32,062 nt of DNA from Chryseobacterium gleum (GTDB lineage Bacteria; Bacteroidota; Bacteroidia; Flavobacteriales_D; Crocinitomicaceae), in NCBI GenBank assembly GCA_945902775.1, contig CAMDMY010000029.1, forward strand, positions 1 through 32,062, read 5' to 3'. Numbering within the stretch: position 1 is the stretch's first letter; every line of letters begins with the position of its first letter. A model generated the notes under the pieces. The model ran no database searches. It saw only the letters and a program-made list of their open reading frames with translations, and was not told the DNA's origin. Of the stretch, positions 15,353-32,062 are shown in pieces. Both the position numbers and the translations under genes were made by a program.

Positions 15353-15393
15353 CCCACTTCTTCGCACTTCTCGTGTGTTGAGTGGGTTTTTTT
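15353..15393 (+). terminator. Intrinsic terminator after zapA
   Basis: CCCACT (15353-15358) pairs with AGTGGG (15381-15386), with an inner GCAC/GTGT helix. The structure runs directly into seven T (15387-15393). It sits 20 bases after zapA and 30 bases before the chosen rny start. Confidence 0.8.
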
Positions 15394-15422
15394 ATGAACA
15401 TAATTTCAAAATTTTAAAAAAA

Positions 15423-16955
15423 ATGTTTTTAGTCATAGGTTTATTACTAGGTATAATTGCAGGAGGTGTCGCTGCATATTTCATTCAAAATAGTTTGTTA
15501 ACAAAGAAAAAAGAGCAAATTATTCATGAGGCGGAAGTTGAAGCAGAAGCAATAAAAAAAGAAAAAACACTTCAAGCGAAAGAAAACTTTTTGAAATTGA
15601 AGGAAGAGCACGAAAATTCTGTAAAAGAAAAAGACAGAAAACTTCAATCACTTGAAGATAAAGTTAAAAGTAAAGAAAATACTTTATCTCAAAAAATTGA
15701 AGAAATAAGTAGAAAAGAGAAAGAGACAGAAAAAATACAATCTGATTATGATTCTAAAATTCAATTAGTTGAATTGAAGCATCAAGAATTAGATAAAATA
15801 CAGCAGAAACGCGTTTTAGAATTAACTAAAATAAGTGGAATGTCTGCTGATGACGCTAAGAATCATTTGATGGATGCATTAAAAGATGAAGCTAGAACTG
15901 GTGCTATGGTTCATATAAAAGAAATCATGGAGGAGGCTAAATTAAGTGCTAATGTAGAAGCCAAAAAGATTGTAATTCAAGCGATTCAAAGAGTTGCCAC
16001 TGAGCAGGCTGTAGAAAATGCTGTTTCTGTTTTTAACATCGAGTCTGATGAAGTTAAAGGAAGAATTATTGGACGTGAGGGAAGAAATATTAGAGCTTTA
16101 GAAGCGGCTACAGGTGTTGAAATTATAGTTGATGATACACCAGAAGCAATTATGCTCTCTTGCTTTGATCCTGTAAGAAGAGAGTTAGCACGTTTAGCAC
16201 TTCATCAGTTGGTTTCTGATGGAAGAATTCATCCAGCTCGTATAGAGGAGGTTGTCGCTAAAATTAAAAGACAGTTAGAAGAAGAGATTGCTGAAACAGG
16301 TCGTAGAACTTGTATTGACCTTGGTATCCATGGACTTCATCCTGAATTAACAAGGATGGTAGGAAGAATGAAGTATAGATCTTCTTATGGTCAGAATTTA
16401 TTACAACATTCACGTGAAGTCGCAAATTTATGTGCTATTATGGCGGCAGAATTGGGCTTAAATGTGAAATTGGCTAAAAGAGCAGGATTACTTCATGATA
16501 TAGGTAAAGTTCCTGATGAAGATCCAGAATTACCTCATGCAATTTTAGGTATGAAGTTAGCTGAAAAATTTGGAGAGAAACCAGAAATTTGCAATGCAAT
16601 TGGTGCTCACCATGATGAAATTGAAATGACTTCAATGATTTCACCGATTGTTCAGGTTTGTGATGCTATTTCAGGAGCACGACCAGGAGCAAGAAGAGAA
16701 GTAGTTGAATCGTATATAAAAAGATTGAAAGAACTTGAAACTTTAGCATTATCTTATGATGGTGTATCTACGGCATATGCAATTCAAGCAGGAAGAGAAT
16801 TAAGAGTTTTAGTTGAAAGTGAAAAGGTAACTGATTTAAAAGCGGATGAACTTTCATTTGCAATTTCTCAAAGAATTCAGACAGAGATGACGTATCCAGG
16901 TCAGGTAAAAGTTACTGTCATCAGAGAGAAAAGGTCAGTTAGTTACGCTAAATAA
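15423..16955 (+). CDS. rny: Ribonuclease Y
   Basis: RNase Y is a membrane-anchored endoribonuclease that initiates mRNA decay. I chose the ATG at 15423 (510 residues, start [20 protein letters not shown]). The GTG at 15375 would place the start inside the zapA terminator stem and add 16 residues that do not resemble the family. The layout is an N-terminal membrane helix (residues about 2-20), a long charged coiled coil (to about 150), a KH domain with [15 protein letters not shown] near residues 212-226, and an HD domain with LLHDIGK (H358, D359) and a later GAHHDE segment. All expected domains are present. The first polysaccharide gene begins 17 bases after the stop codon with no terminator between. 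Confidence 0.96.
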
Positions 16956-17982: not shown

Positions 17983-19251
17983 ATGTATAAATTCATTAAA
18001 AAATCCGATTTCATTAGTAAAATAATTTTACTTGTTTCTGGGACACTAATTGCTCAATCAATCTCTTATTTACTTTCTCCAGTAATTTCAAGACTATATA
18101 CTCCTGAAGAAATGTCTTATTTGACATTACTAATTAGAATTTCAAGTTTTTTTGCTGTAATCTCTACAGGTAGATTTGAGATAGCTTTCCCCCTTCCGAA
18201 GAGAGATGAACATGCTTTTTCACTTTATAAGTTTACAGCATCCCTTACTTTCTTAGTCGTTATTATTTCAATATTTATTGTTTATTTATTTGATTATTTT
18301 GATTTTCAACAATTCTATATAAAACCCATTTTATATTTTATACCAATTTCTATTTTACTTGTTTCTTTTAATAGCCAAGGTGTAAATTGGGCTATAAGGC
18401 AAAAGGATTTTAAATCAATTAATACCTCTAAAATTTTACAATCAACTATAAACTCGTTATTATGTGTGTTTTTAGGTTGGTATTCTTTTGGTGTGAATGG
18501 ATTAATAATTGCTTTTTTGTTTAGCTTGTTACTTTCTAATATACCTTTTTTTAAATCTTTTTTACAAACGTATTCTAGGTTGAAATTTTATAGATTTAAA
18601 AGAAATAAATACATTATACTAAAGGAATATATCGGGTTTCCTAAGGTAAATTTACCGCATGTACTTATGGATCTTACGAAAGATTTATTTATTGCTTTTT
18701 ATTTGATTTTTTTATTTGATAAAGAAATATTAGGACTTTATGACTTTTCTTATAGAATGTTACGTTTGCCAATAATATTACTTGGAGTTTCAATAAGTCA
18801 AGTGTTGTTTAAAAAATCAGTTGATTTAATTAATGACAAAAAATCCATATATCCAATTGTTCGAAAAACGATTTTAATGTTGTTTTTACTTTCTATTGTT
18901 CCATTTGGAATATTGTTTTTATATGGTTCGGATATTTTCGGGTTTATTTTTGGTGAAAATTGGAGAGAAGCAGGACGTTTTTCAGAAATAATGTCACCTT
19001 GGTTAATGATGAATTTTATTGTTTCTCCAGTTTCTCAAATCCCTACAGTTCTTAATAAACAAAAAACATTTTTTATACTGAGTTTTATCTCAACTTTGTT
19101 GTTGGTGTGTGTATTTTTATTGAATCAATTAATCCCGAATGTAAACTTTATTTACACCTTAAAAATTCTTAGTATAAGTCAGTTTTTCTGTTTGATTTTT
19201 GTGCTATTTTGGATACTTAGAATAAGTAAAAAAACAATGTCAAAGATTTAA
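17983..19251 (+). CDS. Wzx-type polysaccharide flippase (first copy)
   Basis: This is a probable lipid-linked oligosaccharide flippase of the MOP superfamily, 422 residues and strongly hydrophobic, with about 10-12 membrane helices by eye. The N-terminal region (LVSGTLIAQSISYLLSPVISRLYTPEEM, about residues 17-44) is typical of polysaccharide-biosynthesis flippases: a helix with SPVxSRLYTPEE, followed by a conserved F-E-x-A-x-P-L segment (FEIAFPLP). The central hydrophilic link at about residues 200-215 separates two six-helix halves. Its last 12 bases overlap the end of the minus-strand lipoprotein gene. A second flippase lies 1.1 kb downstream, so the substrate of each is unclear. Confidence 0.85.
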   Translation: MYKFIKKSDFISKIILLVSGTLIAQSISYLLSPVISRLYTPEEMSYLTLLIRISSFFAVISTGRFEIAFPLPKRDEHAFSLYKFTASLTFLVVIISIFIVYLFDYFDFQQFYIKPILYFIPISILLVSFNSQGVNWAIRQKDFKSINTSKILQSTINSLLCVFLGWYSFGVNGLIIAFLFSLLLSNIPFFKSFLQTYSRLKFYRFKRNKYIILKEYIGFPKVNLPHVLMDLTKDLFIAFYLIFLFDKEILGLYDFSYRMLRLPIILLGVSISQVLFKKSVDLINDKKSIYPIVRKTILMLFLLSIVPFGILFLYGSDIFGFIFGENWREAGRFSEIMSPWLMMNFIVSPVSQIPTVLNKQKTFFILSFISTLLLVCVFLLNQLIPNVNFIYTLKILSISQFFCLIFVLFWILRISKKTMSKI

Positions 19252-20250
19252 TTTTTTTAGAGCTAAATGCCAAGTTGGCGTTAAATCTTTTGTTGCTCCT
19301 TTAGTTGTATAAGAATACCAGATAGCAATTTTATTATCAGCAATTAGTGCTGAAGACCTGTAAACATATTTTAAATTTTTATAAGGTATGTTTTTTTTAT
19401 TTAGAATTTCATGGTTATTTGTCCAATTAATTAAATCTTTACTTTCGGCTAAATATAGTGAGTAATTATCGTTTAATGGATTGCCATAATATCCTGTTGT
19501 AAGAAGATAATATTTTTTATCATCTCCTTTTATTACATCTAAATGCCAAGGTGAATAGTTTTTAGGGAATTCTATGTTTGGAGTTTTAGTATTCTCTTTC
19601 TTGAAATTATAATCTTTTTTAGAAATTATAGTTTCAATTCTATTATATTTTAAATCATTGTTTACAAAATACAATACGTATTCATTTTTTTTATTGTTGA
19701 ACATAATTGAAGGTGACATTATTAATGGCTCATTCTTCTTTAAGTTGTAATTGAGAATTGTTGATTTTTTAAAGACAGATGATTTGTTTTTCTGAGTTAA
19801 AGCAATTACATTATTGAATTTCGGTCTCAACATTTCAATATAATAAATAACCAATTCTCCTTTTTTATTAAAAAAAATATCAGGATCACAATTGTGGTCA
19901 ATAATTGGTTTTTTAACGATAGGATTAATGTCTTTCATGTAATCTGTGAAATTTACTCCATCATAACTTTTATAAAGACATGGGTTTTCTAGAGAATCAA
20001 TATAATATGGGTAAGGTGTTATACCCATTATTAACTCATTTTTGTTCCATAAAACATCTGGATGAACTACTTGACCACTTCCATCATAAGTTTTAATTTC
20101 TATACTTGAATCTGAAGGAAGTTTTTTTATAAATTCAGAAATAGTAGTAGCAATAATTTGATTTTCTGAATATAAATTTTTAATCTTTTTCACTTTAACT
20201 TGACAAGAATTTAAAATAAAAAGTATTATAATAGGTATGAAAATTTTCAT
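19240..20250 (-). CDS. Lipoprotein, possible beta-propeller glycoside hydrolase
   Basis: This 336-residue protein has a lipoprotein signal peptide, IIILFILNSC, with the lipid-bearing cysteine at C16. The mature part is beta-rich with repeated blade-like segments: VVHPDVLWNKNELIM, CDPDIFFNKKGELVIYY, SPSIMFNNKKNEYVLYFV, PWHLDVIKGDDKKYYLLTTG and LYLAESKDLINWT. Such D-P-D and S-x-D-L-x-N-W patterns are typical of five-bladed propeller enzymes (GH43/GH32-like), but I cannot assign a family or confirm a catalytic triad. It is the only minus-strand gene in the polysaccharide locus and sits between two flippase genes, convergent with one and divergent from the other. A role in trimming or binding the local polysaccharide is possible. 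Confidence 0.6.
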   Translation of the reverse strand: MKIFIPIIILFILNSCQVKVKKIKNLYSENQIIATTISEFIKKLPSDSSIEIKTYDGSGQVVHPDVLWNKNELIMGITPYPYYIDSLENPCLYKSYDGVNFTDYMKDINPIVKKPIIDHNCDPDIFFNKKGELVIYYIEMLRPKFNNVIALTQKNKSSVFKKSTILNYNLKKNEPLIMSPSIMFNNKKNEYVLYFVNNDLKYNRIETIISKKDYNFKKENTKTPNIEFPKNYSPWHLDVIKGDDKKYYLLTTGYYGNPLNDNYSLYLAESKDLINWTNNHEILNKKNIPYKNLKYVYRSSALIADNKIAIWYSYTTKGATKDLTPTWHLALKKLNL

Positions 20251-20270
20251 TTTTTTTAAAAAATTATCCC

Positions 20271-20278
20271 CAAATATA
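20271..20278 (-). promoter_or_regulatory. Candidate -7 box for the lipoprotein gene
   Basis: The minus strand reads TATATTTG, a full match to TAnnTTTG, 20 bases upstream of the start codon, which leaves a short 5' leader. No convincing TTG lies at the -33 distance. The gene is transcribed alone against its neighbours and must have its own promoter, which supports the assignment. Confidence 0.45.
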
Positions 20279-20348
20279 AGGTATAATAAGATAATAATTT
20301 ATCTTTTTAAGTATTTTTTTATAAAATTAAAATATTCTTTTTTTTTGT

Positions 20349-20356
20349 TATTTTTG
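20349..20356 (+). promoter_or_regulatory. Candidate -7 box for the second flippase
   Basis: TATTTTTG at 20349-20356 matches TAnnTTTG and ends nine bases before the ATG chosen at 20366. A -33 TTG is not seen at proper spacing. Being just downstream of a divergent gene, the flippase and following genes need a promoter in this gap. Confidence 0.3.
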
Positions 20357-20365
20357 TTAGACATT

Positions 20366-21601
20366 ATGGGTAAATACACGAAGTATATTATAACATTTTT
20401 TACGGAATTTTTAATTTTGTTTTTGGGAATTATAGTTTATAAAATTGTTAATGAAAGATTCAATAACACCCAATTTACAGAATACAATTTATTTAGAAGA
20501 TCTTCATCCCTTTTCCAACCTTTAATTATGTGTGGATTAGGAGTTTCAATACCTAAATTTACTAGTAAATACCTAAATAGAAATTCATTATTAATTGTAG
20601 GCTTTTTCATACTTTTTATTGTAGTAAGTTTGTTTGGATCTGTTTTTTTAATTTTTCATGAATTTTTTTCTGTACTACTTTTTGGAAATAAAATATATTC
20701 TAATTTAATTTTTCTTTTAGTTTTGATGCTTTTTGGAGCAGGTTTCCATTCAATTGTTTATGGTTATTTGAGGGGTAAATTCTTATACGGTTACGCCAAT
20801 CTTTTTCAGTTATTCAATATCGGTTTAGTTCCTGTGTTAACCTTGTTTGTATATAAAGATATTTCTAGCGTATTTTTTCTAAATTCTATAATTTGGATTA
20901 TTTCATCAGTAATCGTTTTTATCTTTTTAGTGTTGTTTTATAAACCTAAAATAAATAAAGTAGTGATAAAACATGATTTGATTAAATTATTGTATTTTGG
21001 TTTACCTAGAATACCAGGTGATTTTGCACTTTTGATTTTGATTTCATTACCATCTTTTATCGTATTACATATTTATAATGATTTTAAACTTGCTGGTTTT
21101 GTTGCTTTTTCAACTACAATGTTGAATTTAGTTGGGGCCGCATTTGGTCCTATTGGATTGATTTTGTTGCCAGAAACAAATCGGTTAATAAAAAATAAAG
21201 AAATAGATAAATTAAAGAAAATAACGAGAAAAATATTAATTATCACTACCGTTTTGATTTTTATTGGTTTAGTTATTTTTTCTTTATTCCCAAGTTTTTT
21301 CCTTGATTTATTAGTTTCTGAAACAGATGTGAAATTAATATCAGCTTGCAAAATCATGTTGCTAGGAGGGTTTGGCTATGCTCTTTATTTAAATCTAAGA
21401 AGTATTTTAGATGCTTTTTATTTTAAACCAGTTAATAGTGTGAATTTACTAAAAACATTATTTTTTTTAATTCTAATGGTATTGATCACTTGGTATTTCA
21501 ATCTTTCCTTTGAATATTTACTATATTCATTTTCAATTTCTATGTCATTATTAGGTTTATTAACTTATTATAAAGTAATATCAATTTTAAAATTACATTA
21601 A
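20366..21601 (+). CDS. Wzx-type polysaccharide flippase (second copy)
   Basis: This is a probable polyprenyl-linked oligosaccharide flippase of 411 residues with about 12 membrane helices. I start it at ATG 20366 (MGKYTKYIITFFTEFLILFLG). The frame stays open back to an ATG at 20237, but that would add 43 residues overlapping the start of the divergent lipoprotein gene and its promoter. Family-like features are the N-terminal helix followed by a G-x-G-x-S-I-P-K segment (GLGVSIPKF) and a mid-protein Y-G-L-P-R-I-P-like motif (YFGLPRIPGDFALLILISLP). It is not obviously a duplicate of the flippase at 17983. The Wzy-like gene starts five bases after it. Confidence 0.85.
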   Translation: MGKYTKYIITFFTEFLILFLGIIVYKIVNERFNNTQFTEYNLFRRSSSLFQPLIMCGLGVSIPKFTSKYLNRNSLLIVGFFILFIVVSLFGSVFLIFHEFFSVLLFGNKIYSNLIFLLVLMLFGAGFHSIVYGYLRGKFLYGYANLFQLFNIGLVPVLTLFVYKDISSVFFLNSIIWIISSVIVFIFLVLFYKPKINKVVIKHDLIKLLYFGLPRIPGDFALLILISLPSFIVLHIYNDFKLAGFVAFSTTMLNLVGAAFGPIGLILLPETNRLIKNKEIDKLKKITRKILIITTVLIFIGLVIFSLFPSFFLDLLVSETDVKLISACKIMLLGGFGYALYLNLRSILDAFYFKPVNSVNLLKTLFFLILMVLITWYFNLSFEYLLYSFSISMSLLGLLTYYKVISILKLH

Positions 21602-21606
21602 TCTAT

Positions 21607-23244
21607 ATGTTATCATTTATTGTTTTATTCATTTTTACATTTTTAATTGTTTTTGTACAGTTTAAAATTTGGAAAATAACACCAAATGTAATTTTTCCAG
21701 TATGTACATTTATATTTTACTATTGGTCATTAGCTGGTGCATGGATTTTTACTATTGATCAAAGTTTTGGAGAATTTGGAAGGTATTTGAATATGACTTA
21801 TTATGTGTATTTAGAAAAAGTTTATCCTGTTAAATTAGATAGTACTTATGCACAAATGATCGTTTACTATGGTTTGTTTATTTTATTTTTTCAGTTAACT
21901 ATTTATTTGATTCTGAAAAGAAGATTTAAAAATCAAGTTTCAAAAAAATCATTGAAATTAATTTTTTTAGATACAAGGATTATTTCTGTTATGATTTTTA
22001 TTTTCATCATCCTTTCCTTTGTAATTGTTAAAATACCTATTTATAAATCCATCATGTTAGAAGAATCAGTTTATGCAAATGTTCGAAAAGGTTTGGTGCC
22101 TTTTTATTCATTTCATCAGTTGTTTAATTTAAGTGCTTGTTTTTTATCCTATTTTACTTTGGCAGTTTATTTGAAAAATGATGAAGATAGCCAATTCAAA
22201 ATTGTCAAGTCTAAATCGGGGCTAGTGTGTTTTACCTTATTGTTTATTGCTACTAATGTTTGGCTTGTATTTCTTGGTAATAAGCATGAGATTTTAATTT
22301 TAGGGATCACTTCTTTCTTATTTTTAGCATATCCTGTTTTAAATTATAAACATCTCAAATCTTTAATTCTGTTAACGGTTATTTTATTTGTAAGTTTTGT
22401 GCTTACGGATCCTATTAGATCTCTAGCTCCTGTTTTATTAAAACCTTTTAAACAGTCTTCCTTTATAACAAATTCGGATACACAAATTAGAATCGCTAAT
22501 TATGTGAAAATAGAAGAAAATAAGAGTTTCAATGATTTGAAATTAATTGAAAAAGAGAAAATCAGAATGTTAAAACGTAAACATAAAAAATTTAGAGCAA
22601 ATTTAATAGATGAAAAAAAAGATCACAAGTCTTTATATGAAATAAAAGAAGAGATTTCAAATAATCTACATATTAAAAATAGTTCTCATGTATATTATGG
22701 TAAATCAAAATTTGATCAAATCAAAATAGCATTAGCTACTATTGCATTCAGTAATGAAATGTTCTCAGGTCAATTTTCATTATATGCTTCCTTAAAAGAA
22801 AAGTTGCCAATATCTATTGGTCATAGTTTTTACTCAGCATTTTGTGTTTTTATTCCTAGATCAATAATAAAAGATAGACCCGTAAGTAGTTACGAATATT
22901 ACTCAAAAAAATTAGAGTTGGACCCAGCACAAGGTTTTACTATTAATCATGCAACTGATTGGTATTTGAATTTTGGGTTTATAGGAGTTTTAATAGGGGG
23001 AGTTTTCTGGGGTGCTTTAATTTCATTTTTATATTTAGGTTCGGTTATAGTGGTTTCGGATGTTTTAAAAAATTTATCATTTATTTCATTGATAAGTGTA
23101 GCCGCTTATTTTTCTATGATTATCAGAGGAGGAATAGATATATTAAAAGTGATTGTTTTTGAATCAATTTTAATTCCTATAATGTTATTATTAGTTTGTC
23201 ATTTTTTATACTCTTATTTAATTTTGATTAAAAAAAATAAATGA
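21607..23244 (+). CDS. Wzy-like O-antigen polymerase
   Basis: This is a multi-spanning membrane protein of 545 residues, about 10-12 helices, and a likely polymerase of polysaccharide repeat units. Helices are clear at residues 2-20, 85-103, 127-142, 205-224, 228-243 and 252-267, and again in the last 100 residues. Between residues about 295 and 372 there is a hydrophilic stretch very rich in Lys and Glu (LIEKEKIRMLKRKHKKF and onward), probably a periplasmic loop. The segment INHATDWYLNFGFIGVLIGG near residue 445 resembles the conserved C-terminal part of oligosaccharide-repeat polymerases. It lies in an operon, five bases after the flippase and overlapping the next gene by four bases. Confidence 0.75.
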   Translation: MLSFIVLFIFTFLIVFVQFKIWKITPNVIFPVCTFIFYYWSLAGAWIFTIDQSFGEFGRYLNMTYYVYLEKVYPVKLDSTYAQMIVYYGLFILFFQLTIYLILKRRFKNQVSKKSLKLIFLDTRIISVMIFIFIILSFVIVKIPIYKSIMLEESVYANVRKGLVPFYSFHQLFNLSACFLSYFTLAVYLKNDEDSQFKIVKSKSGLVCFTLLFIATNVWLVFLGNKHEILILGITSFLFLAYPVLNYKHLKSLILLTVILFVSFVLTDPIRSLAPVLLKPFKQSSFITNSDTQIRIANYVKIEENKSFNDLKLIEKEKIRMLKRKHKKFRANLIDEKKDHKSLYEIKEEISNNLHIKNSSHVYYGKSKFDQIKIALATIAFSNEMFSGQFSLYASLKEKLPISIGHSFYSAFCVFIPRSIIKDRPVSSYEYYSKKLELDPAQGFTINHATDWYLNFGFIGVLIGGVFWGALISFLYLGSVIVVSDVLKNLSFISLISVAAYFSMIIRGGIDILKVIVFESILIPIMLLLVCHFLYSYLILIKKNK

Positions 23245-25246: not shown

Positions 25247-25777
25247 TTGAAAAGAATTGTTATCATTGGTTCGGGGGGGCATGGTAGAGTTGTCTACGAT
25301 GCAATACAAATGTGTGGAGATTTATCAATTGTAGGCTTTATAGATCAAAACTTAGCTGTTGGAACCAAAATAATCGATGATTGTAAGGTAGTTTTGTCAC
25401 AAGATGAATTGTTTAAATTACCTGAGATTACAGATTTTTTTATTGTAGCAATTGGTAACAATAAAATTCGTTATTCAGTTTTTTTAGAAGCTTCAAAATA
25501 TTCAACGCCAATTACAATTATCCATCCAAGTGTATCGATAGCTTCAGATGTTGAAATTAAAGAAGGAACGCTGATTTTATCTAATTCAACAATTTCTACA
25601 GGGGTTAGGATAGGTGCAAATACAATTATAAATTCAAATGTAGTTGTAGATCATGATTCAAATATTGGAATGAATGTACATTTAAAAATAGGCACTTTGA
25701 TAGGAAGTAATTCAGTTGTTTCTGATTTTTCTACTACAAATATTGGTGAAGTAATTTTAGAATTTTCTGCAAAATAA
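25247..25777 (+). CDS. NeuD/PglD-like sugar acetyltransferase, short C-terminus
   Basis: This is a probable acetyl-CoA-dependent N- or O-acetyltransferase acting on a nucleotide sugar. The N-terminal Rossmann-like part has VIIGSGGHGRVVYDA (residues 5-19) for nucleotide-sugar binding. A left-handed beta-helix follows from about residue 92, with the catalytic-type histidine in VVDHD (H136). The chain stops at 176 residues, whereas family members are usually about 205-215. The last hexapeptide coils and the closing V-x-G-x-P-A segment are missing, and the tail is EVILEFSAK. The next gene starts at the stop codon, so no leftover reading frame remains. The start is TTG at 25247; no ATG precedes the conserved motif. 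Activity is uncertain. Confidence 0.75.
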   Translation: MKRIVIIGSGGHGRVVYDAIQMCGDLSIVGFIDQNLAVGTKIIDDCKVVLSQDELFKLPEITDFFIVAIGNNKIRYSVFLEASKYSTPITIIHPSVSIASDVEIKEGTLILSNSTISTGVRIGANTIINSNVVVDHDSNIGMNVHLKIGTLIGSNSVVSDFSTTNIGEVILEFSAK

Positions 25778-27039
25778 TGAAGAAGATACTTAAATATGAT
25801 TTTAGAAGATGGTTTGAGTTTTTGTTATCAATGTTTGTATTTACTTTTCTGATTTCTCCAAAACTTTCTAATCTTTTTATTTTTTTGTTAATTGTGATAG
25901 TAGTTTTAGGCTATATTAGAAAAAACATTTATTTCAATTTCAACAATTTAAATTACCTTTTTATTGGATTCTATTTTTGTTATATAGTTGGATCAATATG
26001 GACAAATCATCCGTCTGTAGCTATGGGTTATTTAGAGAAGAAATTATCATTACTTGTATTTCCATTGTTATTCTCCTTTAATTTAAAGGAAGAAAAATTG
26101 AGTTTAAGATTACCTATTATTGCTTTTGTATTTGGTTTGTTTTTTTTAACAATACAAGGGTTATTAGCATCTTTTAATTGTTTTTTTTCTAACGGATCTA
26201 GTTTATGTTTTTCAGCTTCCACATTATCTAGTATACATCATCCAACTTATTTCTCAGTTTTTTTATTTTTTTCAATGGGTTTAGTATGGTATGGGTATAA
26301 AAATAATTTTAGATTTTTTAATTTCCCTTTGGTTTTAACTTATCTGATTTTTGCAATTTTAGTTCAAAGCTCACTAATGTCATTAGCAGGTGTATTGTAT
26401 TTGTACTTTTTTTTAGGGTTATTATTGTTCGTCTTCCTAATTAAGAAATTCAATAAAATGTTGATACTATTTTTGTTTGTAGTAGGGATTACAATTACTT
26501 TTTCAACGGTAAAGTATATCCCATATTTGAGAGATGAAATTGGTCAATCTCAAGAAGCATTTAAAAATTATATTAAGAATCCGATTCAATATATCAAATC
26601 AAGGAAATATCCATTATCAGGGAATGATACTAGATTAACAATGTGGGAAACGTCTTTACTTGTATTTGAAGAACATATTTTTGGAGTTGGTACGGGTAAT
26701 GTTGACGACTATTTAACTGACCGTTTGAATGATTTTGGTCAAACAGAATTAGCTAAACAAAATTACAACCCGCATAATCAATTTTTACAAATTGCTGTAG
26801 AAATTGGAATTATAGGATTACTTCTCTTTATAATATTGATAGGTAGTTTATTGAAATTTGCATTTATAAATAGAAATTATTTAATCTTAATACTTGTTAC
26901 AAGTTTGATTTTTAATTCTTTATTTGAATCAATGCTTCAGAGGCATAGTGGAATTGTTTTTTATTGTTTTTGGATAACGCTTATTATAACTCAATTTAAA
27001 AAAAGTGATATTATTTTTAAAGTTAACCATATCAGCTAA
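25777..27039 (+). CDS. O-antigen ligase/polymerase (Wzy_C type)
   Basis: This is a multi-spanning membrane protein of 420 residues, about 10-12 helices. It contains the Wzy_C/WaaL-type motif NPHNQFLQIAVEIGIIGLLL with H333, preceded by a large periplasmic loop carrying GNDTRLTMW and the Arg residues typical of O-antigen ligases. It could attach finished polysaccharide to a lipid or protein acceptor, or be a second polymerase. With the Wzy-like protein at 21607 also present, ligase is the more likely role. Its start overlaps the stop codon of the NeuD-like gene by one base. Confidence 0.8.
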   Translation: MKKILKYDFRRWFEFLLSMFVFTFLISPKLSNLFIFLLIVIVVLGYIRKNIYFNFNNLNYLFIGFYFCYIVGSIWTNHPSVAMGYLEKKLSLLVFPLLFSFNLKEEKLSLRLPIIAFVFGLFFLTIQGLLASFNCFFSNGSSLCFSASTLSSIHHPTYFSVFLFFSMGLVWYGYKNNFRFFNFPLVLTYLIFAILVQSSLMSLAGVLYLYFFLGLLLFVFLIKKFNKMLILFLFVVGITITFSTVKYIPYLRDEIGQSQEAFKNYIKNPIQYIKSRKYPLSGNDTRLTMWETSLLVFEEHIFGVGTGNVDDYLTDRLNDFGQTELAKQNYNPHNQFLQIAVEIGIIGLLLFIILIGSLLKFAFINRNYLILILVTSLIFNSLFESMLQRHSGIVFYCFWITLIITQFKKSDIIFKVNHIS

Positions 27040-27065: not shown

Positions 27066-27713
27066 ATGTATAAAATGAAAACAAAAAAGAAAAGGATCTT
27101 AGTCTTAGCTCCACACACTGATGATGGTGAATTTGGTTGTGGAGGCACTATCTCAAAATTTATAAATGAAGATCACGATGTATACTATGCTGCTTTTTCG
27201 GCTTGTCAACAATCTGTTTTACCACAATTTCCTTCTGACATTTTAATAACTGAAGTTAAAGAAGCCACTAGCATTTTAGGTATTAAACCCTCAAATTTGA
27301 TTCTTTTTGATTATGATGTTAGAACTTTTGGATATCAACGTCAAGATATTTTAGATGATTTAATCAAATTAAGAGCTGATATACAACCGGAATTAATATT
27401 TATGCCTACAATAACTGATGTTCATCAAGATCATCATACGATTGCAGAAGAAGGAATGAGAGCTTTTAAATTCAATAGTATTTTGTCTTATGAATTGCCT
27501 TGGAATAATTTTTCATTTTCAACTTCTAGTTTTGTTCATTTGAGTGAAACCGACATTCAAACGAAAGTGAATGCATTACAAGCATATCAATCACAGGCAC
27601 ATAGACCTTATTCAGATGAAGATTTTATTCGTTCATTAGCAAGAACTAGAGGTGTTCAGATAGGTACAAGATATGCAGAAGCATTTGAATTAGTTAGATG
27701 GATAATTGATTGA
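27066..27713 (+). CDS. PIG-L family deacetylase
   Basis: This is a zinc-dependent N-acetyl-sugar deacetylase-like protein of 215 residues, with no signal peptide, hence cytoplasmic. Metal-site motifs are APHTDDGEFGCGG (H17, D19, D20) and VHQDHH (H120, D122, H123), matching the AHPDDE and HxDH patterns of PIG-L/LmbE enzymes such as MshB. A second in-frame ATG at 27075 is an alternative start. It is followed two bases after its stop codon by an LpxD-like N-acyltransferase, which suggests that an N-acetyl sugar is de-acetylated and then given a different acyl group. Substrate assignment is inference. Confidence 0.87.
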   Translation: MYKMKTKKKRILVLAPHTDDGEFGCGGTISKFINEDHDVYYAAFSACQQSVLPQFPSDILITEVKEATSILGIKPSNLILFDYDVRTFGYQRQDILDDLIKLRADIQPELIFMPTITDVHQDHHTIAEEGMRAFKFNSILSYELPWNNFSFSTSSFVHLSETDIQTKVNALQAYQSQAHRPYSDEDFIRSLARTRGVQIGTRYAEAFELVRWIID

Positions 27714-27715
27714 TT

Positions 27716-28618
27716 ATGAATGTTTTAAGTTTAGTTAATTTTTTAGAACCTCTTTCGTTAACTATTGTAAACGAAGAAAGTATTTTAGAGGTTCGAAGTA
27801 TAGATGATGAAGATTTTAAAAGTACGAGTTTAGGATGGTGTTCTATAAAAAAATTAGATTTACTATTAAAAGTAAAGTCAGGTACAGTTTTATTAAATTC
27901 TGAATTAGCTGAAAATTATTTAACTATAAATTCCTCATTTCCTTTCAATGCAATTATTGTAGAAAATCCTCGAAAATCATTTGCAGAAGTATTAAGACAT
28001 TTTTTTATTGAGGAAAGTGAATGGAAAGGAATACATTCGACTTCAACAATTCATCCAAGTGTTGTTTTCGATGAAAATCTAATTACAATTGAACCAAATG
28101 TTGTTTTAGAGAAAAATATCCGAATAGGGAAACGTGTTTATATTGGGGCAAACACTGTAATTAAATCAGGAACAATAATCGGCGATGACGTTAAAATTGG
28201 TTCAAACAATACAATTGGAGGAGTAGGTTTTGGCTATGAACCAAACGAAGAGGGTATGTATGAATTAATTCCTCATTTGGGAAATGTTATTTTACATGAT
28301 AAAGTTGAAGTCGGTAATAATACATGTATTGATAGAGCTGTTTTAGGGTCTACTGTTTTAGAGTCAGAAGTAAAAGTTGATAATCTTGTTCACATAGCAC
28401 ATGGAGTTCGAATTGGTTCTAATAGTCTTGTTATAGCACATGCAATGATTGCAGGTAGTGTTCAAATCGGTAAAAACACTTGGGTTTCGCCTTCTGCTTC
28501 AATAAAGCAAAAATTGATAATTGGAGATAATGCACTTGTAGGAATGGGAAGTGTAGTTCTAAAAAATGTTGAAGATGGTGCAATCGTTGTAGGTGTTCCA
28601 GCAAAGAAAATAAATTAG
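27716..28618 (+). CDS. LpxD-like UDP-sugar N-acyltransferase
   Basis: This is a left-handed beta-helix acyltransferase of 300 residues, started at ATG 27716 because the upstream TTG at 27710 overlaps the previous stop codon. The N-terminal 100 residues resemble the uridine-binding domain of LpxD, ending in AIIVENPRKSFAEVLRHFF. The helix then shows GGVGFGYEPNE, VEVGNNTCIDRAVLG and VHIAHGVRIG, where H229 matches the catalytic His of LpxD. It is shorter than LpxD (about 340) and ends in VVGVPAKKIN, as sugar acetyltransferases do, lacking LpxD's C-terminal helices. Located in a polysaccharide operon beside a PIG-L deacetylase, it more likely N-acylates a polysaccharide precursor than lipid A. A role in lipid A cannot be excluded. 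Confidence 0.8.
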   Translation: MNVLSLVNFLEPLSLTIVNEESILEVRSIDDEDFKSTSLGWCSIKKLDLLLKVKSGTVLLNSELAENYLTINSSFPFNAIIVENPRKSFAEVLRHFFIEESEWKGIHSTSTIHPSVVFDENLITIEPNVVLEKNIRIGKRVYIGANTVIKSGTIIGDDVKIGSNNTIGGVGFGYEPNEEGMYELIPHLGNVILHDKVEVGNNTCIDRAVLGSTVLESEVKVDNLVHIAHGVRIGSNSLVIAHAMIAGSVQIGKNTWVSPSASIKQKLIIGDNALVGMGSVVLKNVEDGAIVVGVPAKKIN

Positions 28619-28619
28619 G

Positions 28620-29633
28620 ATGAAGTTATCTGTTATTATACCTTGTAGAAATGAAGTTAATTTTATTGAAGAGTGTATAGAATCGATTTATTCTAATGAT
28701 TTACCGCTAACTTGTGAATTGAATGTTATTATTGTCGATGGTTTAAGTGATGATGGTACAAGAGATAAGATAAAAACATTAAGTAATAGGTTTCCTAATT
28801 TGTTTTTAGTTGATAATAGACTTCAATTAACTCCTTTCGCTTTTAATTTAGGTATTCATTTTTCAAAAGCTGATTTCTATCAAATTATAGGTGCTAGACA
28901 CATTGTTTCAACTAATTATCTTTTTAAATCAATAGAGATATTACAAAAAGACTCCAGTGTTTGGTGTGTCGGAGGTAGGTTAATAAATGAGTATACAAAT
29001 GACTCTAGTAGAATAATTTCAAAAGCAATGGATACTTCTTTTGGTATGGGATTGGGTAATTTTAGGATACTAGATAAATCTGATTTTACCGATACAGTAA
29101 CCAGTCCTATGTATCCTTCATGGGTTTTCGATAAAATAGGATATTTTGATGAAGAATTAATTCGAAATCAAGATGATGATTTTAATTTTCGAGTAACAAA
29201 AGCAGGTGGGAAAATTTGGTTTGAACATGATATTTCATTAAGGTATTATGTTAGAGGTAATTATAAAGGATTATATAAGCAATTTTTTCAATATGGATAT
29301 TGGAAAGTTTTTGTAAATAAAAAACATGGAGAGGTAACTACTTTAAGGCAATTAGTACCACCTTTCTTTGTATTATATCTTTTTATTTTACCATTTATTT
29401 TAATGTTTAGCTTGATTTTTGGATCAATTTTTTCAATAGGTTTAATTTTATATGTTTTTTTAGCAGCTATAGTTGCTTTTAAAAAATCATTAGCTATTAA
29501 AGAGTTTTTCGGAATATTTAAAACATTTCCTATATTACATTTTAGTTACGGAATTGGTTATTTACAAGGAATAGTTCATTTTTTAATTTTAGGTAAAAAA
29601 CCATCGAATAAACAAAAAAGTTTGTCAAGATAA
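28620..29633 (+). CDS. GT2 family glycosyltransferase with C-terminal membrane helices
   Basis: This is an inverting GT-A glycosyltransferase of 337 residues. It begins MKLSVIIPCRNEVNFIEECI, followed by the nucleotide-binding aspartates in IIVDGLSDDGT and the catalytic-base region RNQDDDFNFRVTKAGG (about residues 180-195). Two or three membrane helices follow at about residues 245-290, then a short tail. The overall layout resembles ExoA-type succinoglycan glycosyltransferases. Where the usual D-x-D metal motif is expected the sequence has GARH, as is common in this subgroup. The start codon is one base after the stop codon of the LpxD-like gene, so translation is probably coupled. Confidence 0.87.
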   Translation: MKLSVIIPCRNEVNFIEECIESIYSNDLPLTCELNVIIVDGLSDDGTRDKIKTLSNRFPNLFLVDNRLQLTPFAFNLGIHFSKADFYQIIGARHIVSTNYLFKSIEILQKDSSVWCVGGRLINEYTNDSSRIISKAMDTSFGMGLGNFRILDKSDFTDTVTSPMYPSWVFDKIGYFDEELIRNQDDDFNFRVTKAGGKIWFEHDISLRYYVRGNYKGLYKQFFQYGYWKVFVNKKHGEVTTLRQLVPPFFVLYLFILPFILMFSLIFGSIFSIGLILYVFLAAIVAFKKSLAIKEFFGIFKTFPILHFSYGIGYLQGIVHFLILGKKPSNKQKSLSR

Positions 29634-29659: not shown

Positions 29660-30874
29660 ATGATTCCATTTTCACCTCCTCGTATTGATCAGAAAATAAT
29701 TGATGAAGTTACTCTTGCTTTAAAATCGGGTTGGATTACTACTGGACCAAGAACAAAGTTATTTGAGAAAAAAATAACTGAATATTGTGGCAATAAAAGT
29801 ACCGTTGCGTTAAATTCGGCAACTGCTGGATTAGAGTTGATTTTGAGATGGTTTGGTGTTAAAGAAGGGGATGAGGTTATTTTACCAGCATATACTTATT
29901 GTGCTACCGCTAATGTAGTTATTCATTGTGGAGCAACACCTGTTTTTGTAGATGTAAATTCAACTGATTTTAATATATCGGTTTCGGAAATTGAAAAAGC
30001 CATCACCTCAAAAACAAAAGTGATAATGCCGGTTGATTTTGCTGGTGTACCTTGTGATTTTAGTGAGATTAATTCTTTAGTTAAAAGGGACGATATTGTA
30101 TCTAAGTTTGAAGCATCAACTGAAGAACAGTCTAATCTTGGTCGAATTTTAGTGTTGTCTGATGCGGCACATTCTTTTGGAGCATTATATAACGGAAAAG
30201 TTGCAGGTAATTTGACGGATGTTTCCGTATTTTCATTTCATGCCGTTAAAAATTTGACTACAGCAGAGGGCGGAGCAATTGCTTTAAATTTCCCTGAACC
30301 ATTTGATAATGAAGAATTATATAAAAAATTCTGTATTACTTCGTTACATGGACAAAATAAAGATGCTTTAGCTAAAACTCAAAAAGGGAATTGGAAGTAT
30401 GATGTTGTAGAAGCTGGATATAAATGTAATATGACAGATATTTCTGCAGCTATAGGACTAATAGAGCTTGAAAGATACAAAGATGATACTTTGGTAAAAA
30501 GAAAGTATATTTTCGATATGTTTAATTCTGAGTTATCAAAGTATGATTGGGCTGAATTACCAGAATATGAAACTAGCTCAAAGACATCCTCCTATCATTT
30601 ATTTCCTTTAAGAATAAAGAATATTTCAGAGGAGCAGAGAGATGAGATGATAAAAAGAATATTTGATGAAGATGTTTCCGTAAATGTTCATTTTATCCCG
30701 GTTCCGATGTTGTCATTCTACGTTAACAAAGGATACGATATTAAAAAATATCCGGTAACATTAGATAATTTTAAGAGAGAAATATCTTTACCTGTTTTTT
30801 ATGATTTAACTGATGAGCAAATAGCGAAAGTTATAAATTCTGTTGTAAAATCCGTAAAATCTGTTATCAATTGA
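29660..30874 (+). CDS. DegT/DnrJ/EryC1 family sugar aminotransferase
   Basis: This is a PLP-dependent aminotransferase of 404 residues, likely converting a nucleotide 4-keto (or 3-keto) sugar to an amino sugar with glutamate as donor. Family marks are GWITTGPRTKLFEKKI at the N-terminus, NSATAGLELILR for phosphate binding, PAYTYCATANVV, D168 in SDAAHSFGA contacting the PLP ring, and the Schiff-base lysine K197 in FHAVKNLTTAEGG. The C-terminal part has VNVHFIPVP. It overlaps the PglC-like gene by four bases, and this pairing is seen in bacillosamine-type pathways (PglE with PglC). No matching 4,6-dehydratase is in the window; it may lie downstream. Confidence 0.92.
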   Translation: MIPFSPPRIDQKIIDEVTLALKSGWITTGPRTKLFEKKITEYCGNKSTVALNSATAGLELILRWFGVKEGDEVILPAYTYCATANVVIHCGATPVFVDVNSTDFNISVSEIEKAITSKTKVIMPVDFAGVPCDFSEINSLVKRDDIVSKFEASTEEQSNLGRILVLSDAAHSFGALYNGKVAGNLTDVSVFSFHAVKNLTTAEGGAIALNFPEPFDNEELYKKFCITSLHGQNKDALAKTQKGNWKYDVVEAGYKCNMTDISAAIGLIELERYKDDTLVKRKYIFDMFNSELSKYDWAELPEYETSSKTSSYHLFPLRIKNISEEQRDEMIKRIFDEDVSVNVHFIPVPMLSFYVNKGYDIKKYPVTLDNFKREISLPVFYDLTDEQIAKVINSVVKSVKSVIN

Positions 30875-31458
30875 AACGAATTTTTGACATTCTAGTCTCT
30901 GGGTTGATTTTGATTTTTTTCCTTCCTTTTGGATTATTATTTTCATTTTTAATTATTTTTGAAAGTAGAGGGGGAATATTTTATAGACAACAAAGAATTG
31001 GAAAAAACAACACTCCTTTTAAATTGTTTAAATTCAGATCAATGCGAGTTGATGCTGATAAAAGCGGAAAATTAACGGTTGGGATGAGAGATTCTAGAAT
31101 AACCAAAGTGGGTTATTTTTTAAGAAAGTATAAATTGGATGAGTTCCCTCAATTTATAAATGTTTTTATTGGTCAAATGAGTATAGTAGGTCCGAGACCA
31201 GAAGTGAAAGAATACGTTGATTTATACAATGAAGAGCAGAGAAAAGTTTTAAATGTAAAACCTGGAATTACGGATTATGCCTCTTTAGAGTATTTTGATG
31301 AAAATGAATTATTAGGAAAGTCAGAAAACCCTCAAGAGACGTATATTAAAGAAATCATGCCGGCTAAATTAGAATTAAATAAAAAGTATTTATCTAATCC
31401 AACCATTTCTCATGATATATCAATTATGTGGAAGACATTTATGAAAATGATTAAGTAA
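30871..31458 (+). CDS. PglC-type initiating sugar-phosphate transferase
   Basis: This is a monotopic phosphoglycosyl transferase of 195 residues that moves a sugar-1-phosphate from UDP-sugar to polyprenyl phosphate, the first membrane step of polysaccharide assembly. It has an N-terminal membrane-dipping segment (ILVSGLILIFFLPFGLLFSF, residues 7-26), then FYRQQRIGKNNTPFKLFKFRSM. The catalytic Asp-Glu pair is D90-E91 in KLDEFPQF, followed by GQMSIVGPRPE and VKPGITDYASL. The size fits the minimal PglC/WecP-like form without the WbaP extension. The start is TTG at 30871, overlapping the aminotransferase stop codon (TTGA); no ATG is available before the conserved region. Confidence 0.93.
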   Translation: MKRIFDILVSGLILIFFLPFGLLFSFLIIFESRGGIFYRQQRIGKNNTPFKLFKFRSMRVDADKSGKLTVGMRDSRITKVGYFLRKYKLDEFPQFINVFIGQMSIVGPRPEVKEYVDLYNEEQRKVLNVKPGITDYASLEYFDENELLGKSENPQETYIKEIMPAKLELNKKYLSNPTISHDISIMWKTFMKMIK

Positions 31459-31472
31459 TCTAATTATAAGTA

Positions 31473-32062
31473 ATGAAAAAGTACAGATTTTTGTTATTTA
31501 TTCTCCCCGTTATTTTTTTCTTTCTTTACTATTTTTGGCCAATCCGTAAGGATACTCTCAAAGTACTTTTTATAGGGAATAGTTATACGTATCGAAATGA
31601 AATGCCGTCTATTTTTGAGGGAATTGCTATTTCAAAAGGTAAAAAAGTGTATGTTGACGATTGTACTTTAGGAAAAGCAACTTTAGCTATTCAATCAAAA
31701 AGATTTGCACTGAAAAATGCAATTTCGAAAGAGAAATGGGATGTTGTAATCATTCAAGGTTCAAGCAGAGATTTTGTTAAAGATTCATCAATTATAGTTA
31801 AGAAGACGAAGCCCGCTTTAGAAAAAATCATTAAAGCTGTTCAAAAAAACAATCCATCTACCAAAATGTTGTTTTATATGACTTGGGGCTATCGAAACGG
31901 TTTTAAACCTATTGATGAGGTAAATACCTTTGAAAAAATGTCAAACTTAATTGAGAAAAGGTATTTAGGTTTGTATAAAACCTATGATATCGGGGTAGTA
32001 CCTGTAGGGATGGTTTGGAAAGATGTTCGAAAAAAGAGGGATGATGTTGTTTTGTATGTTAA
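31473..32062 (+). CDS. SGNH-type hydrolase, 3' end beyond window
   Basis: The frame is open from ATG 31473 to the window edge, giving 196 residues. An N-terminal membrane anchor or signal segment (YRFLLFILPVIFFFLYYFW) is followed by VLFIGNSYTYRNEMPSI, which fits block I of SGNH/GDSL hydrolases with the nucleophile serine in GNS, and by VVIIQGSSRD. These features resemble DUF4886-like SGNH proteins. The catalytic Asp-His block is past the edge. It lies 14 bases after the PglC-like gene in the same direction, so it is probably part of the polysaccharide operon, perhaps an esterase or O-acyl-handling enzyme. Confidence 0.7.
   Translation, partial: MKKYRFLLFILPVIFFFLYYFWPIRKDTLKVLFIGNSYTYRNEMPSIFEGIAISKGKKVYVDDCTLGKATLAIQSKRFALKNAISKEKWDVVIIQGSSRDFVKDSSIIVKKTKPALEKIIKAVQKNNPSTKMLFYMTWGYRNGFKPIDEVNTFEKMSNLIEKRYLGLYKTYDIGVVPVGMVWKDVRKKRDDVVLYV

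Follow-up and report, generated by a model that had tools for sequence, protein, structure and literature searches.

The window analysed here, a whole stretch of 32,062 nucleotides, is the entire contig G000:C29, which ends at base 32062. Judged from the flanking genes, it carries an O-antigen-type locus. Within this locus, a gene for a PIG-L family de-N-acetylase (27066..27713, + strand, 215 aa; assigned by PF02585 and its metal residues) is followed by a gene for a putative LpxD-like N-acyltransferase (27716..28618, + strand; assigned by NCBIfam, alignment and tree). The two open reading frames (27066-27713 and 27716-28618) are separated by two bases, as described in the initial annotation. 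The ATG of the second gene, at 27716, lies two bases past the PIG-L stop codon; were translation to begin at the in-frame TTG at 27710, the two genes would overlap.

The pair is followed by a GT2 glycosyltransferase (28620..29633, + strand; PF00535, 45 bits), a DegT/PseC-like sugar aminotransferase (29660..30874, + strand; PF01041, 332.6 bits) and an initiating sugar-phosphate transferase (Bac_transf; 30871..31458, + strand; PF02397, 192.3 bits). The aminotransferase scores 305.9 bits with the PseC equivalog, which is under the cut-off of 423.5. An O-antigen ligase/polymerase-like membrane protein (25777..27039, + strand; PF04932, 64 bits) is encoded immediately 5' of the PIG-L gene. Other genes on the 5' side of the pair code for a flippase-like protein (17983-19251; PF13440), two long proteins without Pfam matches that were classed as membrane-type by eye (20237-21601 and 21607-23244) and, according to Pfam, an epimerase-like SDR, a GT4 and a NeuD-like protein. 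This NeuD/PglD-like protein (25247-25777) is short and ends early, spanning positions 1-159 of 202 in TIGR03570. The last ORF (31473-32060) runs off the contig end; it matches DUF4886 and, weakly, a GDSL/SGNH hydrolase.

The gene for RNase Y (15375-16955) immediately precedes the polysaccharide locus. The same placement is confirmed, as in the window, for the related loci L050 and L097, and is assigned by size and place only for L049, L055, L092, L096, L102 and L104. Given this recurrent position of RNase Y, the polysaccharide locus may have a fixed site.

The PIG-L protein

The PIG-L protein matches PF02585 with an E-value of 2.7e-15 (57.4 bits; gathering cut-off 28.2). Its metal motifs are PHTDD (H17/D19/D20) and HQDH (H120/H123). 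All five residues are invariant in the 51 aligned PIG-L proteins (51/51, that of the window included). The zinc motifs are intact, as initially annotated. Five further residues (R86, R92, Q93, R132 and K135) are likewise invariant (51/51). An identity as bacillithiol deacetylase (BshB) was considered and rejected on equivalog scores (TIGR04001: 66.1 of 182.5 bits; TIGR04000: 46.4 of 195.25 bits).

The LpxD-like protein

The second protein passes the cut-off of the LpxD subfamily model PRK00892 (243.6 bits; cut-off 207). It fails those of the lpxD equivalog TIGR01853 (205.9 bits; cut-off 242.5) and of the NeuD/PglD model TIGR03570 (101.4 bits; cut-off 160.8). The initial annotation had assigned an LpxD-like N-terminal domain. 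This domain matches no Pfam model at 1e-3, and the support for its LpxD-like nature comes wholly from NCBIfam and the alignment. Over the alignment, the protein is 27% identical to the canonical lpxD product of its own genome and 26% identical to E. coli LpxD.

H229, previously noted as a catalytic-type His, aligns with H239 of E. coli LpxD, the catalytic His of that enzyme. K266 stands at the position of E. coli H276. The C-terminus reads GVPAKKI, as in sugar acetyltransferases, and the protein lacks the LpxD tail; this part of the initial description is correct. For comparison across relatives, LpxD-like proteins were grouped as window-type (group A), ACP-linked (group B) or diverged and PIG-L-linked (group C). 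The H239 column holds H in 22/22 rows of group A, 5/5 of group B, 6/7 of group C and 13/13 canonical rows. The exception in group C is the PIG-L-linked LpxD-like protein of L112 (8767-9696), in which N replaces the catalytic-type His. The H276 column holds H in all 13 canonical rows, and in group A it holds K in 18 of 22 rows, D in one and G in three.

Structure models, each computed from a two-sequence alignment, have mean pLDDT values of 60.1 and 44.0. A Foldseek search with these poor models placed LpxD chains on top, yet with an E-value of 7e-3 and a TM-score of about 0.2. The models were too poor to be used for judging pockets.

Separation from lipid A biosynthesis

A canonical lpxD, the presence of which the initial annotation had left to be checked, is encoded elsewhere in the same genome (G000:C5). 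There, lpxD (TIGR01853, 357.6 bits), a fused lpxC/fabZ (PRK13188, 668.1 bits) and lpxA (TIGR01852, 301.3 bits) are consecutive.

A tree was computed from 62 aligned rows with 303 columns retained. One clade (support 98/86) contains 12 canonical LpxD proteins from the window's order and family, nine proteins of a third paralogue, and L168. A second clade (100/99) contains group A (22 proteins), group B (5), group C (7), L166, L167 and one NeuD row. Group A forms one side of a branch with support 97/94, and E. coli LpxD is placed outside both clades. The positions of four long branches (the NeuD row L060_NeuD, L167, L106 and L112) are unsure. The tree thus sets the LpxD-like protein apart from Bacteroidota LpxD, a point that had been raised together with the original annotation.

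The third LpxD paralogue (L149-L153, L155, L156, L158, L159) has about 310 aa and is not of the window type. It is also present in members of the genus, and some of its loci have a neighbouring EF-P-like gene (by eye).

It would still be conceivable that the LpxD-like protein is a spare lipid A LpxD in an accidental neighbourhood, given that it passes the PRK00892 subfamily cut-off. We regard this as highly improbable and have rejected it: the score is under the equivalog cut-off, the protein falls into a separate clade, a canonical lpxD is present, and PIG-L adjoins the gene in 20/20 relatives.

Conservation of the gene pair

The LpxD-like protein occurs in 21 of 240 genomes of the window's family at E<=1e-40, the window's own included. 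In all other family loci with this protein (20/20), the gene immediately 5' of it, in the same orientation, codes for a PIG-L protein, which is 47-93% identical to that of the window. With ORF starts as assigned here, the gap between the two genes ranges from -8 to +12 bases. An ortholog of the GT2 gene comes after the LpxD-like gene in 14 of the 20 relatives. Four loci (L044, L049, L060 and L061) are limited by short contigs. At the phylum level, 10 of 395 genomes have a match to the LpxD-like protein, again including its own, and among the nine other loci PIG-L is adjacent in six (L160-L165). Thus, the pair, whose recurrence in relatives had also been left to be checked, is a genuine unit of two genes that polysaccharide loci have conserved. 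L167 encodes an LpxD-like protein with neither PIG-L nor a CE4-type deacetylase, and the same holds for L168.

A scan of genome contigs returned 11 loci, with a close relative only in L009. This locus was taken to be from the same genome as G030:C34 and was left out of the counts. The others (L010-L019) were dropped, because the match falls within nucleotidyltransferase-like proteins of 550-841 aa (by eye). For 27 pairs, the distances among PIG-L proteins and among LpxD-like proteins are correlated (r 0.86; 0/2000 permutations as high), which carries little weight, since common descent by itself would produce such a value. In L055 (7965-9335), two tandem PIG-L genes lie ahead of one LpxD-like gene.

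Loci with a dedicated acyl carrier protein

In all five group B loci, the genes for PIG-L, the LpxD-like protein, a small acyl carrier protein (ACP) and an AMP-forming ligase follow each other in that order, the ACP and the ligase being found in each by tblastn. In L160, the ACP matches PF00550 with 24.7 bits (cut-off 20.8) and the ligase PF00501 with 207.8 bits. When these two L160 proteins were used as queries at 1e-3 against the window and 52 loci, the only matches outside group B were in L108, where a short fragment of an ACP and a divergent ligase were hit. Accordingly, neither the ACP nor the ligase of group B has a relative in the window or its 20 related loci at this threshold. In view of the linkage, a carrier protein is the most likely source of the acyl group for the LpxD-like enzyme of group B. 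By homology, a carrier-protein acyl donor may also be envisaged for the pair in the window.

Proposed function of the pair

We consider it likely that, in the cytoplasm, a single UDP-linked N-acetylhexosamine destined for the polysaccharide is processed by both enzymes in succession. PIG-L would strip the N-acetyl group, as suggested by its family and its intact metal motif. The LpxD-like enzyme would then hold the UDP-amino sugar via its N-domain and acylate the free amine, with H229 as the base, if homology is a guide. The modified sugar would be incorporated into the polysaccharide, probably by the adjoining GT2 protein (28620..29633). In some relatives, the acyl group would probably come from the dedicated ACP after charging by the AMP-forming ligase; for the pair in the window, the donor may be a housekeeping acyl-ACP or a CoA thioester. 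We infer the deacetylation and the re-acylation, the UDP level, and the identities of the sugar and of the acyl group.

This two-step reading is favored by the 20/20 adjacency, the separate clade, the canonical lpxD elsewhere, the ACP-ligase link in group B, the replacement of PIG-L in L166 and the alternative caps (see below). L167, having an LpxD-like protein without PIG-L, counts against it. So do the lack of relatives of the group B ACP and ligase in the window and its related loci, the marginal CE4 score in L166 and the PIG-L places without a recognized cap next to them (see below). N-acyl remodelling, as put forward in the initial annotation, is plausible and has gained support: the last three of these observations speak for it, with the UDP-linked substrate and the unusual acyl group standing as inferred parts of the proposal. 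Given the acetyltransferase-like C-terminus, a plain acetyl group is possible. Together with K at the H276 position, this C-terminus means that the donor could be acetyl-CoA, which would be futile on the same amine. The enzyme pairs are directly assayable, and the ACP-ligase form renders the acyl donor testable.

The presence of a DegT gene suggests that the two enzymes might serve separate amines: the LpxD-like protein would replace PglD on the 4-amino group made by DegT, and PIG-L would deacetylate another sugar. Downstream of the pair, the window and 10/20 relatives encode DegT and the initiating transferase (one relative with an extra gene between), two more have DegT at a greater distance downstream, and the NeuD/PglD-like gene of the window is itself a short one. 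Moreover, according to PMC6519341, a PglD homolog of F. psychrophilum is predicted to place 3,5-dihydroxyhexanoyl on the 4-amino group of Qui2NAc4N. PIG-L, however, adjoins the LpxD-like gene in 20/20 relatives, yet in L057, L058 and L059 (19.9 kb read each) the pair is present without a DegT match at 1e-5, so that the unit is independent of DegT. In G020 (L157), a mere 62-aa piece of DegT is left between the GT2 and transferase genes, and the pair is intact. In L166, the gene preceding the LpxD-like gene codes for a CE4-type deacetylase in the place of PIG-L, though this locus also has DegT; the assignment is marginal (23.6 vs 23.1 bits), and a sequence search with this protein matched no PDB chain at 0.01. 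Overall, we consider a division over two amines unlikely, and successive action on one sugar is preferred.

W41 in the N-domain of the LpxD-like protein occupies the column of F41 of E. coli LpxD, a uracil-stacking position. This column holds F in 13/13 canonical rows and W in 19/22 rows of group A, 5/5 of group B and 7/7 of group C. The Trp at this place suggests that the LpxD-like protein may bind UDP. It also bears on the idea that the pair works after transfer, on a lipid-linked or assembled glycan. PIG-L relatives do include enzymes that act on a lipid-linked sugar. LpxD, however, binds a UDP-sugar, and every LpxD-type row aligned has F or W at the F41 position. A parallel for post-transfer action would be DnpA, for which action on the core GalNAc of P. 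aeruginosa is a speculation in PMC10579960. Post-transfer action has, in our estimate, a small chance of being correct, well below that of separate amines, and the UDP-linked sugar is retained as the proposed substrate.

Comparison with known systems

In the Raetz pathway of lipid A biosynthesis, a UDP-amino sugar is deacetylated by LpxC and then N-acylated by LpxD. As this is the classical case of UDP-sugar deacetylation and N-acylation, the pair in the window may work alike. The second enzyme of the window is homologous to LpxD, but its deacetylase is a PIG-L protein unrelated to LpxC, the gene is in a polysaccharide locus, and the LpxD-like protein differs from LpxD by its equivalog score, its clade, K at the H276 position and the absence of the tail. 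If the proposal is true, the LpxC-LpxD reaction order would have arisen again, this time for the sugars of a polysaccharide and with a deacetylase unrelated to LpxC. The same deacetylate-then-acylate order of LpxC and LpxD is also given in PMC10579960, where it serves as an analogy for the speculated conversion of GalNAc to GalN(L-Ala) by DnpA.

DnpA (PA5002, a PIG-L protein) is listed beside PA5003, a GNAT N-acetyltransferase, in a Pseudomonas LPS core locus (PMC8005017, from its P. syringae core table). The likeness is that of a PIG-L gene adjoining one for an N-acylating-type enzyme in an LPS locus, but the partner is a GNAT protein and the sugar a core sugar. For the Wbp/Vim linking-sugar pathway of P. 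gingivalis, PMC7468200 proposes that VimE, a putative deacetylase, removes the C-2 acetyl group and that VimA then attaches an amino acid at the amine thus exposed. The proposed logic of deacetylating and recapping an amine is similar. However, that source puts VimE in CE4, and VimA matches N-acetyltransferase/FemAB rather than LpxD. Membership of the window pair, with its PIG-L and LpxD-like proteins, in the Wbp/Vim pathway was dropped because of the CE4 assignment of VimE. The O-polysaccharide of F. psychrophilum is a flavobacterial example with an unusual N-acyl group (3,5-dihydroxyhexanoyl), predicted in PMC6519341 to come from an ACP. Its WfpG differs, being a PglD homolog predicted to act on a 4-amino group, and the term "deacetylase" is absent from the main text of PMC6519341.

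The initial annotation knew of no named pathway with both enzymes. Among the matches listed in a literature search by title, abstract start and term counts, no combination of PIG-L with an LpxD-like protein was found, which is weak evidence because many subscription papers are beyond the reach of the search. The deacetylate-and-recap logic itself has already been proposed in print for other systems (PMC7468200, PMC10579960).

Other partners of PIG-L

At E<=1e-35, PIG-L has 45 occurrences, spread over 43 of the 240 family genomes; some of its neighbors were classed with the aid of Pfam. The neighbor is a window-type LpxD-like protein at 22 places (L110 is cut by the contig end), and a diverged LpxD-like protein is in the same gene run at seven. 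An ATP-grasp protein is found at three places, and a formyltransferase, another hexapeptide transferase and a WbqC-like protein (two genes on) at one each; a contig end lies on one side at two. The remaining eight places, including the first tandem copy in L055, have no recognized cap immediately adjacent, so that PIG-L may also act alone; of these, L099 has an ATP-grasp gene one gene off, and three have GT2 next. Thus, 12 of the 23 places lacking a window-type partner have another acyl- or amide-forming enzyme next to PIG-L or within its gene run. A second hexapeptide protein is encoded as well in five of the seven diverged cases (two checked by Pfam). Further on in L101, there are a PP-loop/Asn-synthase-type protein, a glutamine amidotransferase and a His_biosynth protein.

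It is tempting to speculate, though we put this at slightly under an even chance, that one Bacteroidota PIG-L subfamily makes a common free-amine sugar, which interchangeable neighbors cap differently. The caps would be LpxD-like proteins with or without their own ACP and ligase, ATP-grasp ligases, formyltransferases and other hexapeptide transferases. Exchange of the cap gene would alter the chemistry of the surface glycan, the deacetylase staying constant. In our view, the uniformity of the PIG-L proteins agrees with a single shared substrate that receives different caps. If this is true, PIG-L would be a marker of a modified amino sugar, the neighboring gene would tell the kind of cap, and the N-acyl diversity of Bacteroidota surface glycans could be predicted from sequence. 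The pair may be one route by which related bacteria vary their surface coats.

In 15 of the 49 PIG-L loci read outside the window, a homolog of the non-hydrolysing UDP-GlcNAc 2-epimerase is encoded no more than three genes away from PIG-L, a raw count to be weighed against the general frequency of this gene in glycan loci. It adjoins PIG-L in nine of them (L046, L047, L048, L061, L104, L105, L110, L111 and L114), three of these nine being confirmed by Pfam. Pfam or NCBIfam was run on the homologs of seven of the 15 loci (L097, L100, L101, L104, L111, L114 and L165). There is no 2-epimerase among the genes of the window that were run against Pfam. The proximity fits with a UDP-N-acetylhexosamine as the PIG-L substrate.

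WbqC-family genes are found near PIG-L in L107 (1052-1771) and L108 (10669-11367), one of them immediately after a formyltransferase gene.
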